This document shows, one piece after another, positions 1,332 through 11,911 of a DNA stretch of 11,911 nt. This DNA is from Candidatus Atribacteria bacterium (GTDB taxonomy: Bacteria; Atribacterota; JALVIU01). Position 1 is the first letter of the stretch. Every line of letters starts with the position of its first letter. The notes beneath the pieces were generated by a model, which had not been told where the DNA came from, ran no database searches, and was given only the letters and a program-made list of their open reading frames with translations. The translations under genes were made by a program, and so were the position numbers. The stretch covers positions 1 to 11,911 of the forward strand of contig JALVIU010000202.1 in the NCBI GenBank assembly GCA_027028665.1, written 5' to 3'.

Positions 1332-1343
1332 TGGTATAATATA
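1332..1343 (+). promoter_or_regulatory. Extended -10 promoter of the transporter operon
   Basis: TATAAT at 1335-1340 is preceded by TGG, giving a perfect TGnTATAAT extended -10 element. A TTGTAT at 1310-1315 could serve as a -35 box, but its spacer is long (19 nt); extended -10 promoters depend little on the -35. The predicted start is near 1347, giving a 5' untranslated leader of about 250 nt before the ATG at 1600. The same 12 bases TGGTATAATATA recur in the promoter at 10702-10713. Confidence 0.75.
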
Positions 1344-1403: not shown

Positions 1404-1552
1404 TAAGGTAGCCGAAATATAAAAATAATCCTCTGGTTATCCTTAGAAGAATAGCAAGGGTGAGTTGCCCCAGGTTTATACCCGAAGAGGGTGTAGTAGT
1501 ATCCTGTGAAGTGGGAAACTCCTCATTTTAACAAGAGGAGTAAGTCACCTTA
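1404..1552 (+). ncRNA. Structured leader RNA, resembling an IS605 right end / omega-RNA scaffold
   Basis: This untranslated leader has several nested helices. Bases 1476-1483 pair with 1489-1496 (8 bp, two G-U) around a GAAGA loop. ACTCCTC (1518-1524) pairs with GAGGAGT (1535-1541). GTGA (1506-1509) can close that arm with TCAC (1545-1548). TAAGGT (1404-1409) could alternatively pair with ACCTTA (1547-1552) and enclose the whole. The arrangement GTGGGAA, then a C-rich/G-rich hairpin, then a short linker and GTCAC is what I recall from the right ends and guide-RNA scaffolds of IS200/IS605 TnpB elements. No TnpB or TnpA reading frame or recognisable remnant is present. It may be a decayed or miniature element, a domesticated guide RNA, or an unrelated cis-regulatory leader. 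I recognise no known riboswitch class. Structure is moderately supported; the class is uncertain. Confidence 0.4.
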
Positions 1553-1560
1553 CAATAAAA

Positions 1561-1576
1561 AGGCTGTATAGAGCCT
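1561..1576 (+). promoter_or_regulatory. Small hairpin upstream of the binding-protein ribosome site
   Basis: AGGCT (1561-1565) and AGCCT (1572-1576) form a perfect 5-bp stem with a 6-nt loop. It ends 9 nt before the Shine-Dalgarno AAGGGGG (1586-1592). It could affect ribosome loading or mRNA stability, but its small size makes function uncertain. Confidence 0.35.
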
Positions 1577-1599
1577 AAACTAATTAAGGGGGTATTTGT

Positions 1600-3147
1600 A
1601 TGTTTAAGAAAAAGCTTACAAGGCGCGAATTTTTAAAGTACACAGGCGCCACAGGTGCAGCTTTGGCCGCAAGCAGTGCTTTAGGTCCTGTTGCTCGGGT
1701 ATTTGCAAAGGATAAGATTAAAGTACCAATTGGTGACCCAAATTACTTTAAGGGAATGAAGCTTAATTATGTACAGGACACCAACTGGTTACATGCACCC
1801 CTATTTGTTTCACCACATATTGAAAAAGAGGCAGGAGTTAGTGTAGGAAGGGATACAGTAGAATATTTCAAGATTGGAGAAGGATTTTCAAAAATAATGC
1901 CTCAGCTTATGTCTAAGAAGCCAAAATGGGATTGGATTCAATTTTCTCCAATGTTTTTAGGTAGTTTTGTTTCTATGGGGGCACTTGAGCCACTTGATCC
2001 ATATCTTGAGAAGTATGCAGGTACAGATGAATATCTTAATCAGGTAATGCCTGCATACCGTGAGTTTTATATGAAGTGGGATGGAAAGGTCTATGGTGTA
2101 ATGCTTGATGGTGATATTCACCTTCTCCATTATCGTCCTTCCTTCTTTAATGATCCAGAACTTAAAAAGAAGTTTGAAAAGAGATTCAAAAAAGAACTTA
2201 AGCCACCTGAGACATGGTATGATTACAGAGATACAGCCCAATTCTTTACAGAAGAATTAAAAAATAAAGGGATATATGGTGTTGAGTGGGTAGTAAATAA
2301 TCCGCTATTCGGATGGGGATTCTATTATGATATGATCGCATCAAAGGGTATAAACTATTTTGATGAAAATATGAATCCAACTATTGTAAATGATGATGCA
2401 GTAGAGGCATTAGAGCTATTTAAAGAGATTAACCAATTTGCACCTCCAGGACATGAAACAATGGGTATAGATGAAACAATTACCTACTGGCAAAGTGGTA
2501 GAGTGGTAATGGCTGTCTGGTGGATAGACCTTACAGAGTTTACTGCACAGGCAAAACCAGAGATTGCAGATGACCAGGCAAGTGCGCTTGTTCCGGGATG
2601 GAAGATAGGAGATAAAGTTGTACATAGGGCTATGACCCTTTACAACAGAATTGCAAGTATTCCAAAGAATATTCCTCAAGATAGAAAAGAAGCAGCATTC
2701 TACTTTATCTATCGTCTATCTCATCAGGATTATAGTACTCACTATGTAGCAGATGAATATTCTGGTTCTGACCCATTTATGAAGAGACATTATGAGACAC
2801 CAGAAGAATATCTTAATCCTGATCCATTAAGAGGTACATCTGATCTGTGGCCGACAAATAATGGCATATTCCATAAGCTTTCAACAGCAAAGAACCATTT
2901 GAAGGCTGGATATGAAAATGTTCAGGTAGGTTACCCACAATTTAACTGGTCAGGCGCTGTAGAGTATGCACAGAGTATGAGTATTAATTTCTCCAAGTTT
3001 ATCTCTGGACAGCTTACTGCAAAACAGGCACTTGAAAAAACCGCTGATGAATGGGTAAAGATCGTACAAAAATATGGACTTGAGAGTCAGAAAAAACAGT
3101 ATGCAAACTTTGTTGCAGGTGCTAAGAAACTGGGATACTGGAAGTAA
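1600..3147 (+). CDS. Tat-exported CUT1 sugar ABC transporter substrate-binding protein
   Basis: A 515-residue family 1 (MalE-like) extracellular solute-binding protein. The N terminus has a textbook twin-arginine signal: TRREFLK at 7-13 (R8, R9), a mild hydrophobic stretch of about 14-29 rich in Ala and Gly, and a V-F-A site predicting cleavage after A36. There is no lipobox Cys, so the mature protein should be soluble and fully folded before export, which fits a periplasm. The mature part has typical features: a region near the N-terminal third with WDWIQFSPMFLGSF and LEPLDPYL, a WDGKVYGVMLDGD hinge segment, and many Trp and Tyr suited to sugar stacking. It is longer than MalE (about 370 mature), like some rhizobial and thermophile polyol or oligosaccharide binders. 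AAGGGGG at 1586-1592 sets the ATG 7 nt later. It heads the operon behind a strong promoter and a G/C hairpin, consistent with high expression. Ligand unknown. Confidence 0.9.
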   Translation: MFKKKLTRREFLKYTGATGAALAASSALGPVARVFAKDKIKVPIGDPNYFKGMKLNYVQDTNWLHAPLFVSPHIEKEAGVSVGRDTVEYFKIGEGFSKIMPQLMSKKPKWDWIQFSPMFLGSFVSMGALEPLDPYLEKYAGTDEYLNQVMPAYREFYMKWDGKVYGVMLDGDIHLLHYRPSFFNDPELKKKFEKRFKKELKPPETWYDYRDTAQFFTEELKNKGIYGVEWVVNNPLFGWGFYYDMIASKGINYFDENMNPTIVNDDAVEALELFKEINQFAPPGHETMGIDETITYWQSGRVVMAVWWIDLTEFTAQAKPEIADDQASALVPGWKIGDKVVHRAMTLYNRIASIPKNIPQDRKEAAFYFIYRLSHQDYSTHYVADEYSGSDPFMKRHYETPEEYLNPDPLRGTSDLWPTNNGIFHKLSTAKNHLKAGYENVQVGYPQFNWSGAVEYAQSMSINFSKFISGQLTAKQALEKTADEWVKIVQKYGLESQKKQYANFVAGAKKLGYWK

Positions 3148-5003: not shown

Positions 5004-6113
5004 ATGGCTAGAATTAGATTTGAGAATATAACCAAAAAGTTTGGAAAGACAGTTGCTTTGAAGGATGTCTCCTTTGATGTAGATGATGGGGAGTTTTTTG
5101 TTCTTTTAGGGCCGAGTGGGGCCGGAAAGACAACAACCTTAAAACTTCTTGCGGGATTATATAAACCTACAGAAGGAAATATATTTATAAATGATAAAAA
5201 TGTGTCAGAAGACCCTCCATACAATAGAAATGTGGCAATGACATTTGAAAGCTATGCCTTATATCCTCATCTTACTGTATTTGAAAATATTGCAAGTCCT
5301 CTTAAGGCACCAGGAAGAAATATACCTTCTAAAGAGGTAAAGGAGAGAGTAGAAAGAGTAGCTAGAATGCTAAAAATAGATCAGTTACTTGATAGAAAGC
5401 CTGCTGAAGCAAGCGGAGGGCAGAAGCAGAGAATCGCCCTTGCAAGGACCATGGTAAGAGAACCAGATATATATCTATTAGATGAGCCACTTTCCCACCT
5501 TGATGCAAAGATAAGATATGAGTTAAGACAGGAGTTTCATAGACTTGAGGCATTAAAAGGAGTAACAACAGTTTATGTTACACACGATTATGTAGAGGCC
5601 CTCAGTTTGGGGGATAGGATCCTTATGCTGGATCATGGAGAAGTCCAGCAGATAGGAAAACCCCGAGAGATTTATGAAGACCCTGCTAATATAAGGGTAG
5701 CAAAGCAGGTGGGACAGCCAGATATCAATATTGTAGAGTGTGTAACAAGAGTAGAAGGGGAGAAGATAGTTCTTATGCCAAAAAATGAACCGACTATAAA
5801 TATAGAGATCAGTGATGAAGCACAGGCAGCATTTAGAAACAATACATATCCTGAAGTATTACTTGGGATAAGACCTCAATTTATAAAGGTAGGGGAAATA
5901 CCTGGGTCACAAATCTTTGATGGAAGAGTAGATGTTTATCAGGTGTTGGGCTCTGAAGGTGTATTAAATGTAGAAATAGGGGATTTAAATTTGATTGCAC
6001 TTACCAGCCCAGAGGATAGATATACCCATGGTGAAGAAATAAAAGTATATTTCCTTAAAGATAGGTTCTATTTCTTCTCTCCAGAAAATGGAGAAAGAAT
6101 AAGGTTCTCTTAA
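5004..6113 (+). CDS. Sugar ABC transporter ATPase 1 (MsmK/UgpC-like)
   Basis: A 369-residue cytoplasmic ATPase that powers the importer. Motifs in order: Walker A GPSGAGKT (36-43), Walker B IYLLDEP with D160 and E161, D-loop SHLD (164-167), and switch His H194 in VYVTHD. The signature is ASGGQ (136-140) rather than LSGGQ. The Q-loop Gln is replaced by Glu: VAMTFESYALYP, E82. Residues from about 235 on form the TOBE/OB-fold regulatory domain common in MalK-type proteins (LLGIRPQFIK is visible). It pairs with a second, different ATPase encoded 14 nt downstream, suggesting a heterodimer as in rhizobial polyol transporters with two ATPases (GlpS/GlpT type); the pairing is inference. The ATG is preceded by AAGGGG with 8-nt spacing. 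Confidence 0.93.
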   Translation: MARIRFENITKKFGKTVALKDVSFDVDDGEFFVLLGPSGAGKTTTLKLLAGLYKPTEGNIFINDKNVSEDPPYNRNVAMTFESYALYPHLTVFENIASPLKAPGRNIPSKEVKERVERVARMLKIDQLLDRKPAEASGGQKQRIALARTMVREPDIYLLDEPLSHLDAKIRYELRQEFHRLEALKGVTTVYVTHDYVEALSLGDRILMLDHGEVQQIGKPREIYEDPANIRVAKQVGQPDINIVECVTRVEGEKIVLMPKNEPTINIEISDEAQAAFRNNTYPEVLLGIRPQFIKVGEIPGSQIFDGRVDVYQVLGSEGVLNVEIGDLNLIALTSPEDRYTHGEEIKVYFLKDRFYFFSPENGERIRFS

Positions 6114-6127
6114 GATAGGGGGAAAAA

Positions 6128-7252
6128 ATGGCAAAGGTAACATTAAAAAATGTATATAAAATTTATACTCCTCGCACAAAAGGGGGGAAAGAAGTAGAAG
6201 CTGTAAGGGATCTTAATTTGGTCATAGAAGATGGTGAATTTATGGCACTTTTGGGTCCATCTGGATGTGGAAAAACCTCTACATTGAGGATGATAGCAGG
6301 ACTTGAATCCATTACAAAAGGAGATATATATTTTGACGATGTAAGAGTAAATGATCTTTCTTCTGTGGAGAGGAATGTGGCAATGGCATTTGAAACATAT
6401 TCTCTTTATCCACATATGACAGTATATAAAAATATCTCCTTTCCTCTTGAAGTGAGGCATAAGTCAAAAAAAGAGATACATAAAATAGTAGAAAATCTTG
6501 CAAAAAAGTTTCAGTTAGATGATGTATTAAATGAGTATCCTGCTCGTCTTTCAGGAGGACAACAGCAGAGGGTTTCTTTAGCAAGGGCTCTTGCGAGAGA
6601 ACCATCAGTTTTCCTATTAGATGAACCTCTCTCTCACTCAGATGCCCAACTTAGATTTCAGATGAGGACAGAGATAAAAAGACTTCATTATGAAATAAAA
6701 TCTACCATGATATACGTTACCCATGACCAACTTGAGGCTCTTTCTCTTGCAGATAGAGTGGCAGTTATGAATTTTGCAGAACTTCAGCAGGTGGGCACCC
6801 GTGATGAATTGTACAATAATCCCTATAATCTTTTTGTTGCAGATTTCATTGGTGAACCCCCAATGAATCTTAATAAAGGATTAGTTACTCAGGAAGATGA
6901 TGATCTATTCCTTAAGCTCTTAGGTTCTTCCATAACTTTACATATGAATGCAGAAAGAACAGAAAAGATAAAGAGATTAGATAAAAAGGAGTATATAGTA
7001 GGGATAAGGCCCCAGGATATTATTCCAGTTGAGGTACCCTCAGGATTTATGACATTTGATGCGGAGGTAGATTTTGTAGAATTTATTGGTGAAAGAAGTT
7101 TGCTTACCATAAAAAATGGAGATCTTACTCTTAAAGTCCTTGCGTCTCCAGATTTTGATGTGAAAGCTGGAGAGGTTCTTAAGTTTTCTTATCCGCCAGA
7201 GAGGGTACATGTCTTTGATATAGAGACAGAAAAGTCTATTTTAGTACTATAA
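6128..7252 (+). CDS. Sugar ABC transporter ATPase 2 (MsmK/UgpC-like)
   Basis: A 374-residue second ATPase, related to but clearly distinct from the preceding one. Walker A GPSGCGKT (43-50), signature LSGGQ (141-145), Walker B VFLLDEP with D165 and E166, switch His H199 in IYVTHD. As in ATPase 1, the Q-loop Gln is Glu: VAMAFETYSLYP, E89. The D-loop reads SHSD (169-172) where the family normally has Leu before Asp. A TOBE-type regulatory domain occupies about 240-374 (IVGIRPQDIIPVE). Its signature is canonical while its partner's is altered, so the two ATP sites of a heterodimer would not be identical. AGGGGG at 6117-6122 is 5 nt before the ATG. The stop is 2 nt before the FGGY kinase start. 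Confidence 0.93.
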   Translation: MAKVTLKNVYKIYTPRTKGGKEVEAVRDLNLVIEDGEFMALLGPSGCGKTSTLRMIAGLESITKGDIYFDDVRVNDLSSVERNVAMAFETYSLYPHMTVYKNISFPLEVRHKSKKEIHKIVENLAKKFQLDDVLNEYPARLSGGQQQRVSLARALAREPSVFLLDEPLSHSDAQLRFQMRTEIKRLHYEIKSTMIYVTHDQLEALSLADRVAVMNFAELQQVGTRDELYNNPYNLFVADFIGEPPMNLNKGLVTQEDDDLFLKLLGSSITLHMNAERTEKIKRLDKKEYIVGIRPQDIIPVEVPSGFMTFDAEVDFVEFIGERSLLTIKNGDLTLKVLASPDFDVKAGEVLKFSYPPERVHVFDIETEKSILVL

Positions 7253-10740: not shown

Positions 10741-11445
10741 GTGGATAATAAAAGACTTGAAATTCTTTCTAATATGAGGCTTTTTCCTTTAGAGGATAAA
10801 GATACTACTTATGAAACAATTGTAAATTATACGAGAGAACTATTCGGACCGCGGAGAATAGTCTTATATGTGAAAGATGATACATGGAAGAGAGAATATT
10901 CTTATCCTTCTGAGGAAATGCTGGGATTTGAATTAAAAGACGAGTATCTTGATAATATATATGAAAAATTTGCACCTTGTATATTCTCTTTTGAAGAGGC
11001 AAAAGATGTTGGTATTAATTTAGAAGGTATTACAATTTTTTTGTCCCTGGGTACAAAAGAGTTACCTATAGGGATTCTGGTGCTTGCAGGTATTAAAGGG
11101 GTAGTAGATGAAATAAAGGAAGAATTGCCTGTATTGAAAATCTTTTCGAGATATATAGAAGCCCTTATATATAATGTTAAGAAACTTGATAAAAAAAGAG
11201 AAGAGGAGAATATAGAAGATAATATGGTTTCCACTTTAAAGCATGATATTGTATCCATGTTGTCCCGAGAAGTAAGAACACCTCTCAGTTCTATCCTTGC
11301 CTATGCAGAAACTCTTAAAGAGACAGAGGACCTAAGCGAAAAGGAAAAAAAGGATTTTATAGAGACCATTTATAAAGAGGCCCTTAAACTAAAAGAGATA
11401 ATGGATAGGATTATGGATTATCTTTCTATGCTTGTGGAGGAATGA
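10741..11445 (+). CDS. GAF-like plus DHp protein, degenerate histidine kinase without His or ATPase domain
   Basis: A 234-residue soluble protein. Residues of about 20-145 look like a GAF-type sensor fold (FGPRRIVLYVKDD, then LPIGILVLAG), and 150-230 form a charged helical hairpin like a histidine-kinase dimerisation domain. The H-box is recognisable as MLSREVRTPLSSILAYAETL, but the phospho-accepting His of SHELRTPL is Arg (R176, codon CGA at 11266-11268). The protein ends right after the DHp second helix, with no N, G1 or G2 boxes. The gene ends cleanly: its last codons hold the next gene's Shine-Dalgarno, and the downstream sequence is a different gene, so this is not a frameshifted kinase. 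It cannot be a normal autokinase; a dimeric sensor, a partner or anti-kinase for another system, or a regulator of the neighbouring phosphatase gene are guesses. The function is not known. Confidence 0.75.
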   Translation: MDNKRLEILSNMRLFPLEDKDTTYETIVNYTRELFGPRRIVLYVKDDTWKREYSYPSEEMLGFELKDEYLDNIYEKFAPCIFSFEEAKDVGINLEGITIFLSLGTKELPIGILVLAGIKGVVDEIKEELPVLKIFSRYIEALIYNVKKLDKKREEENIEDNMVSTLKHDIVSMLSREVRTPLSSILAYAETLKETEDLSEKEKKDFIETIYKEALKLKEIMDRIMDYLSMLVEE

Positions 11446-11911
11446 ATGGAACTTTTGGAAGGTGCAAAAATTGCATCATATGCAGCGGGAAAATTTCTGC
11501 TTTCACATCTTCATGAAATTAAGGAAGTGATGACCAAAAGTAATGCCTTCGACCTTGTAACGAAATTTGACAAAGACGCAGAGGAAATATTTTTTACATA
11601 TCTTGAACGATACTTTCCGGATATTCCTTTTTTCTCTGAGGAAAGTGGAAAATTATGGACAGGGAAAAAGAACAGGTTTTGGGTAATTGATCCACTTGAT
11701 GGAACAACCAACTATGTAAAAGGTATCCCTATGTTTGCAACCTCTTTGGCCCTTGTAGAAGATGGGAAACCCATTCTTGGTGTTATATATGATCCTGCTC
11801 GGGATGAGATGTTCTGGGCCGAAAAAGGAAAAGGCGCCTATTTAAATGGTTCTCCTATAAAGGTGTCTTCTCATAGAGAATTATTAGGTGCTATACTTAG
11901 CACTACATTTT
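11446..11911 (+). CDS. Inositol monophosphatase-family phosphatase, 3'-partial
   Basis: The first 155 residues of a Mg-dependent phosphatase of the IMPase/SuhB/FBPase-like family; the gene runs off the right edge (full length is usually about 250-270). Visible motifs: NAFDLVTKFDKDAEE (33-47), the metal-binding Glu pair in FFSEESG (E65, E66), and WVIDPLDGTTNYVKG (79-93) with D82, D85, G86 and T87 as metal and catalytic residues. YLNGSPIKVS fits the strand after the motif. Members hydrolyse inositol phosphate, fructose-1,6-bisphosphate or related sugar phosphates; in thermophiles dual activity is common, so the substrate is left open. GGAGG at 11436-11440 lies 5 nt before the ATG and within the end of the preceding gene, so the two are translated as a pair. 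Confidence 0.92.
   Translation, partial: MELLEGAKIASYAAGKFLLSHLHEIKEVMTKSNAFDLVTKFDKDAEEIFFTYLERYFPDIPFFSEESGKLWTGKKNRFWVIDPLDGTTNYVKGIPMFATSLALVEDGKPILGVIYDPARDEMFWAEKGKGAYLNGSPIKVSSHRELLGAILSTTF

Follow-up and report, generated by a model that had tools for sequence, protein, structure and literature searches.

An IS605-like omega-RNA scaffold in the 5' leader of a sugar ABC-transporter operon of a Candidatus Atribacteria bacterium

What becomes of a transposon guide RNA once its nuclease is gone? Cas12 guides descend from the guide RNAs of TnpB nucleases; to our knowledge little has been described of the fate of these RNAs after loss of the nuclease gene. The locus analysed here raises this question in a cellular setting: an omega-RNA scaffold that is still recognisable, and whose stems can still be drawn, lies in the leader of an operon in a genome without detectable TnpB. 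It resembles the omega-RNA family in both sequence and structure, it is present in a single copy, and neither TnpB nor TnpA is detectable alongside it. We asked to which class the leader belongs, where it came from and whether it still acts on anything.

The leader and its genomic setting

The window, i.e. the whole stretch of 11,911 nt that we analysed, is one contig of a 1.79-Mb assembly of 413 contigs (completeness 89.9%). It encodes a PfkB sugar kinase and a ureidoglycolate-lyase-like protein, followed by an ABC sugar transporter operon consisting of a TAT-exported binding protein, two permeases and two MalK/UgpC-type ATPases; also present are a xylulokinase-type FGGY kinase, a tatC-like gene and cobalamin genes (inspection was the only basis for tatC and the second cobalamin gene). 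The binding-protein gene (extracellular solute-binding protein with a TAT signal, SBP_bac_1) occupies 1600-3147 on the plus strand, with its start codon at 1600. The MalK/UgpC-like ATPase genes of this operon are adjacent to one another (5004-6113 and 6128-7252), and the pairing suggests a heterodimeric ATPase.

As the preliminary description of the locus had it, the element sits between a promoter and the start codon: the omega-like stretch lies downstream of an extended -10 element, TGGTATAAT (1332-1340, plus strand; recognised by consensus inspection only and absent from the sigma-70 scan listing), and upstream of position 1600. Just 3' of this predicted promoter there is a perfect 13-bp inverted repeat, ATTATCTTGAACA-AA-TGTTCAAGATAAT (1360-1387, unstranded), which is single-copy in the genome, scans as a terminator on the minus strand and, judged by its letters, looks like a repressor operator of the transporter operon. 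The palindrome has no similarity to the right-end hairpin discussed below and hence provides no obvious IS605 left end. A 21-nt sequence close to its left half occurs in several genomes of one genus (L004, L006 and L007) beside GTTCCACGTGGAAC; this is probably an unrelated repeat. Next comes a 5' leader hairpin, UAAGGUAGCC/GGUUAUCCUUA (1404-1445, plus strand), that is outside the omega-like part. The scaffold had been described as extending over 1404-1563, and the omega-like part does fall within these limits; it starts, however, near 1454 and not at 1404. The leader is single-copy in the 1.79-Mb genome. The RNAfold z-score of 1404-1563 is -3.06, the fold being more stable than that of 199 out of 200 dinucleotide shuffles, and on the sense strand neither a terminator nor a known riboswitch was detected.

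Covariance models built from TnpB loci and the leader

The preliminary description had assigned the leader, from its pattern of elements, to the orphan IS605-like omega-RNAs and had proposed a covariance-model search as a check. We gathered TnpB loci by protein homology only and then read their 3' ends, which share GAAGCnnGAAGC, a hairpin and then AG..GTTCAC or GTCAC. A right-end covariance model built from 28 of these TnpB 3' ends with the window excluded (R1) has its best match in the window precisely at 1502-1548 (18.8 bits, E 0.006; the runner-up has 11 bits), a score that is not significant on its own genome-wide (E 0.86), where two higher-scoring chance matches fall inside coding regions. 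The second model, R2, is slightly biased, as its training includes some rows from leader-derived searches; it scores 1481-1548 at 28.7 bits, which is the sole match in the leader's own genome at E<=5, and across 50 genomes the leader ranks fourth, with the G010 and G030 TnpB omega-RNAs and a G031 orphan above it. The third model, R3, was built from 12 omega-RNAs identified by TnpB protein homology alone, again with the window excluded, and gives 27.0 bits to 1467-1548 (E 4.2e-6 within the window). In the whole genome the R3 match to the leader has an E-value of 6.1e-4, and nothing else is found at E<=10. The same model gives between 12.6 and 62.5 bits, and mostly more than 20, to genuine TnpB omega-RNAs on which it was not trained; in 281 kb of unrelated loci its best score is 9.6 bits. 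Models trained on TnpB-adjacent RNAs thus pick out the leader, which bears out this assignment.

The Infernal E-values are rough, owing to a short calibration (a second window match of 14 bits was given an E of 0.008, which looks optimistic), and more weight belongs to the empirical nulls. The weak R3 match at 11409-11506 (14 bits) lies partly inside a histidine-kinase gene, and we regard it as chance. The training structures show strong covariation, and stem 2 covaries clearly among the protein-identified TnpB loci (for example CCTGT/GCAGG, CTGAT/GTCAG, CTAGT/GCTAG, CGGGT/ACCCG and CTTGT/GCAAG). Since training rows were picked for an intact stem 2, the percentage paired is biased upward; stem 1, which was outside this selection, also covaries.

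Simple pattern searches point the same way. A rule combining the GAAG..GAA.C box, a hairpin of at least 6 pairs and TCA[CA] within 7 nt yielded 8 matches in 120 Mb of simulated genome-like DNA, corresponding to about 0.0016 expected in the window, and in 690 kb of real sequence all of its matches besides the window's own copies were IS605 ends. A scan with a leader-derived 19-mer hit seven places, one of which is the end of a genuine Halomonas cerina TnpB gene, CCTGTGAAGTGGGAAGCCCCGCCCGTTAGGGCGGAGAGCAGTCAC; this end reads CCTGTGAAGTGGGAAGCCCC...AGCAGTCAC, compared to CCTGTGAAGTGGGAAACTCC...TAAGTCAC in the leader.

Searches by primary sequence similarity were unproductive. When the leader was compared to TnpB 3' regions by plain blastn, it did no better than control windows, 31 of 292 of which score as high. 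BLASTN against plasmids and phages returned nothing significant (the best plasmid match, in Psychrobacter, is without TnpB), and the best foreign match over 61 genomes, in G033, was discarded as it falls in a coding region; copies next to tnpB, which the preliminary description had proposed to look for, did not turn up by BLASTN, and the leader remains single-copy. Rfam gave no relevant match to the leader, either at gathering scores or at E<=5; weak matches to AMV, STnc150 and ARRPOF are chance. Rfam release 15 also gave no gathering-score match in six loci (L025, L156, L164, L111, L076 and L173) that do carry TnpB omega-RNAs (an orphan in L173, and one with a deleted tnpB in L164), and because it misses loci with such RNAs, its negatives on the leader are uninformative for the omega-RNA class. 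TnpB omega-RNAs are easily overlooked and likely missed by standard annotation; they can be found with a small covariance model. Scans of viral sequences for motifs of the leader produced eight chance matches and one orphan element, L155.

Could an ordinary structured leader simply resemble a right end by chance? Part of the record speaks for this: the leader was singled out by its very resemblance, R1 alone scores as well elsewhere in the genome, and the blastn scores do not exceed those of the controls. Against it stand the uniqueness of the R3 match in 1.79 Mb together with the low ceiling of its null in unrelated DNA, the joint agreement of the right-end box and terminus with stems 2 and 4, and a complementarity of the stem 1 loop to the 3' end (described below) that the models do not score. 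We consider a chance resemblance highly improbable, and hold with high confidence that an IS605 omega-RNA or right end is the source of the leader stretch.

Scaffold elements and the competing free fold

In the cryo-EM structure of an omega-RNA (PMC10097598) there are four stems, numbered 1-4, and the loop of stem 1 forms a pseudoknot with the 3' end. All five elements can be drawn in the leader: stems 1 to 3, the pseudoknot, and stem 4 with GUCAC at its end. As drawn, their order is the same as in the ISDra2-type omega-RNA, or reRNA (PMC10097598; right ends L156 of Halomonas cerina, L025, L111 and L164), namely stem 1, the stem 2 5' strand, (G)GAG, stem 3, UGAA, the stem 2 3' strand, AANC, stem 4 and GTCAC. 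All elements given below are on the plus strand.

Stem 1 (1454-1468) pairs GCAA (1454-1457) with UUGC (1465-1468) around the loop GGGUGAG (1458-1464). It is a manual fit to the ISDra2 architecture in a register that departs from the consensus, and the R3 alignment places stem 1 differently, from 1467. Within this loop GGUGA (1459-1463) can pair with UCACC (1545-1549), a counterpart, going by complementarity, of the stem-1-loop/3'-end pseudoknot; the predicted pairing would be a further likeness to the ISDra2-type omega-RNA, and such pairing is possible in 12 of 12 genuine omega-RNAs. A hairpin with a loop complementary to the 3' end arose in 154 of 20,000 dinucleotide shuffles (p ~0.008); this figure concerns the manual stem 1, which the models do not score. 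An alternative closing pair, GTGA (1506-1509) with TCAC (1545-1548), had been put forward in the preliminary description. The two strands are indeed complementary; in real omega-RNAs, though, the partner of the 3' TCAC is the loop of a hairpin lying upstream, so that GTGA/TCAC is probably irrelevant as a closing pair.

The 5' strand of stem 2, CCCG(A) (1481-1485), comes from the R2 and R3 alignments. CCCG (1481-1484) pairs with UGGG (1512-1515), the fifth pair is A.G, and AGAG follows, like the conserved GGAG. The leader differs from the usual omega-RNA in that stem 2 has four pairs and A.G instead of U.G or U-A at its base. Earlier pairings of CAGG (1471-1474) with CCUG (1503-1506) and, for stem 2, of CCCA (1469-1472) with UGGG were replaced by the model alignment. 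Stem 3, AGGGU (1488-1492)/AUCCU (1501-1505), was obtained from a constrained fold spanning 1488-1505. It is followed by GUGAAGUGGGAA (1506-1517; R1, R2 and R3 alignments), which holds the conserved UGAA, the stem 2 3' strand and AA, and whose letters are also found in the Halomonas TnpB right end. RNA folding then gives stem 4, CUCCUC/GAGGAG (1519-1540), with a loop containing UUUA; its six pairs and 10-nt loop are another difference from the ISDra2-type omega-RNA. The scaffold 3' end, GUCAC (1544-1548; all three alignments), corresponds to the IS605 right-end terminus, and 1519-1548 has the terminal hairpin followed by GTCAC of a right end. In this part of the leader the letters and coordinates first reported were accurate: GTGGGAA at 1511-1517, the hairpin CTCCTC (1519-1524)/GAGGAG (1535-1540) and AAGTCAC at 1542-1548. 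The bases just 3' of GUCAC, CUUACAAUAAAAAGGC (1549-1564), are flanking DNA in the putative guide position.

The leader has a fold of lower energy than the omega fold, which again sets it apart from the ISDra2-type omega-RNA. The omega fold costs 6-9 kcal/mol over the free fold of the naked RNA (pseudoknot left out), as compared to 0-4 kcal/mol in most genuine omega-RNAs (the exceptions are 6.7 and 10.1), and the two folds are predicted to be mutually exclusive. The free fold involves the Shine-Dalgarno sequence, AAGGGGGU (1586-1593, plus strand), which is predicted to pair with AUCC (1501-1504) or GCCCC (1467-1471): the pairing of its G-run reaches about 90%, for the most part with 1501-1505 or 1467-1471. 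When 1446-1548 is deleted in silico, the probability that the Shine-Dalgarno is unpaired rises to about 0.55-0.75. According to these folding models, a cis effect of the scaffold on translation of the binding protein through such pairing is possible.

The folds bear on the idea that the leader has been exapted in cis, as an omega-RNA-derived 5' UTR under selection in which alternative folds expose or hide the Shine-Dalgarno, or which binds a factor, and so controls the transporter. The location between promoter and start codon fits this idea, as do the stability of the fold relative to shuffles, the occlusion of the Shine-Dalgarno and its release upon scaffold deletion, and the mutual exclusion of the two folds; there is also a precedent in Borrelia, where IS605 hairpins are kept beside genes in RNA form (PMC2775950). 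G-rich Shine-Dalgarno sequences, however, readily pair with C-rich stretches by chance, the sense strand is without a terminator or known riboswitch, and four orthologues in the phylum are without such a leader. On balance we think selected cis control unlikely. If it is real, an omega-RNA would have turned into a regulatory UTR. It is likewise doubtful that the transposon scaffold, without its protein, has been exapted in the broader sense, be it as a translational control leader of the sugar transporter or as a guide RNA that an uncaptured TnpB or TldR uses in trans, targeting through a guide in the operon's own leader.

Missing partners, probable origin and related elements

The absence of tnpA and tnpB from the 11,911-nt window, which had been pointed out before, extends to the whole assembly: searches with PF07282, PF01385 and PF01797 detected no TnpB, TnpA or TldR in this 89.9% complete genome. 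Its PF07282 match is a PriA zinc ribbon and not TnpB, its PF01385 match is a frame full of stops that overlies gcvP, and with PF01797 nothing credible came up. No coding remnant of TnpB was found in the leader. Neither a left end nor an insertion boundary was identified, and no left-end hairpin resembles CTCCTC..GAGGAG. The putative guide (1549-1564) has no second match in the window at up to 3 mismatches and no significant one in the genome. Upstream of four orthologous binding-protein genes from the phylum (at most 41% identical; the genomes compared are related at the phylum level) the leader is missing, and a scan of the genome contigs for the binding-protein gene found no relative. The preliminary description had named as the mark of a plain cis leader a lack of similarity to tnpB flanks combined with conservation only upstream of this binding-protein gene; such similarity exists, and the phylum orthologues are without the leader.

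Might the scaffold nevertheless be a functional guide RNA, used in trans by a TnpB or a nuclease-dead TldR encoded elsewhere, with 1549-1564 as the guide? TldRs are TnpB-like nuclease-dead repressors with guide RNAs (PMC13418256), and these RNAs belong to the same scaffold class as the leader; here, by comparison, no tldR gene was detected and no target was found. That all scaffold elements can be drawn, that the R3 score is within the range of TnpB-adjacent RNAs, that the metagenome-assembled genome is only 89.9% complete and that TldR guide RNAs are known as RNA-guided repressors (PMC13418256) would all agree with such a role. The assembly, on the other hand, yielded no TnpB-family protein and, at the sensitivity used, no second guide match; furthermore, the naked RNA prefers its other fold by more than most genuine omega-RNAs do, and the transcript continues into the mRNA. 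Beyond the scaffold itself nothing supports guide use in trans, and we regard it as very unlikely.

The reading that we favour, and consider fairly probable, is that the leader scaffold is a passive or near-passive relic, the stranded right end of a core-deleted IS605 element. An IS605 element would have inserted upstream of the sugar ABC-transporter operon; tnpA, tnpB and the left end would then have been lost by core deletion or recombination, leaving the right end (1454-1548) stranded, and this right end would now be transcribed within the 5' leader of the operon. It probably has no RNA-guided activity today. Through its C-rich strands, for which pairing with the Shine-Dalgarno is predicted, it may passively reduce or modulate translation of the binding-protein gene. 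One point against a relic is that all five structural elements remain drawable, although a relic that died long ago would not have to retain them. Among the functional options initially listed, a stranded end is thus the most likely and cis regulation is possible, whereas trans guidance would have to do without a partner protein in the assembly.

Free-standing IS605 ends are already known, and the leader adds one more case. Core-deleted IS605 elements are well described, as PATEs and terminal-only IS605 elements in Haloquadratum (PMC3119063). In these, and by the proposed history in the leader too, core deletion left behind an end sequence that derives from IS605 and has no transposase; unlike these archaeal repeats, the bacterial leader is single-copy and has no second palindrome that we recognise. 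Free-standing IS605 stem loops have also been linked to lipoprotein genes in Borrelia (PMC2775950). There, as here, an IS605 end structure without transposase stands beside an unrelated gene, but the Borrelia hairpins are located at gene 3' ends and are conserved among orthologues, whereas the leader carries a longer omega-RNA scaffold in a 5' position. The leader itself differs from an ISDra2-type locus in having no upstream tnpB gene and no TnpB in the assembly.

In the course of the searches we came across further elements of this kind. Rhodothermus phage RM378 carries an unannotated IS605 element (L164 1501-1857; NC_004735.1 25383-25739) that retains a left-end hairpin and a complete omega-RNA but only the first part of tnpB, the bulk of this gene being deleted. 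Several orphan IS605 right ends or omega-RNAs lie on the phage-like contig 55 of G031, a genome from the same phylum (L173, L183, L188 and L189), and a PF07282 search of that genome found no TnpB. Like the leader, these are orphan omega-RNAs or right ends without an intact tnpB; unlike it, they are intergenic copies in phage genomes rather than part of an operon leader, and the RM378 element keeps its left-end hairpin and a tnpB fragment. By analogy, these core-deleted relatives may be taken as close parallels to the stranded-end history proposed for the leader. On another phage contig (L155 8357-8480, minus strand) the left and right ends of an IS605 element are fused to about 100 nt; no TnpB is found in this 129-kb record, and the element sits in the leader of a phage gene and resembles that of RM378. 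We had equated its inner hairpin with stem 3 of the leader, an assignment that was dropped, since RM378 identifies the L155 hairpin as the left-end hairpin.
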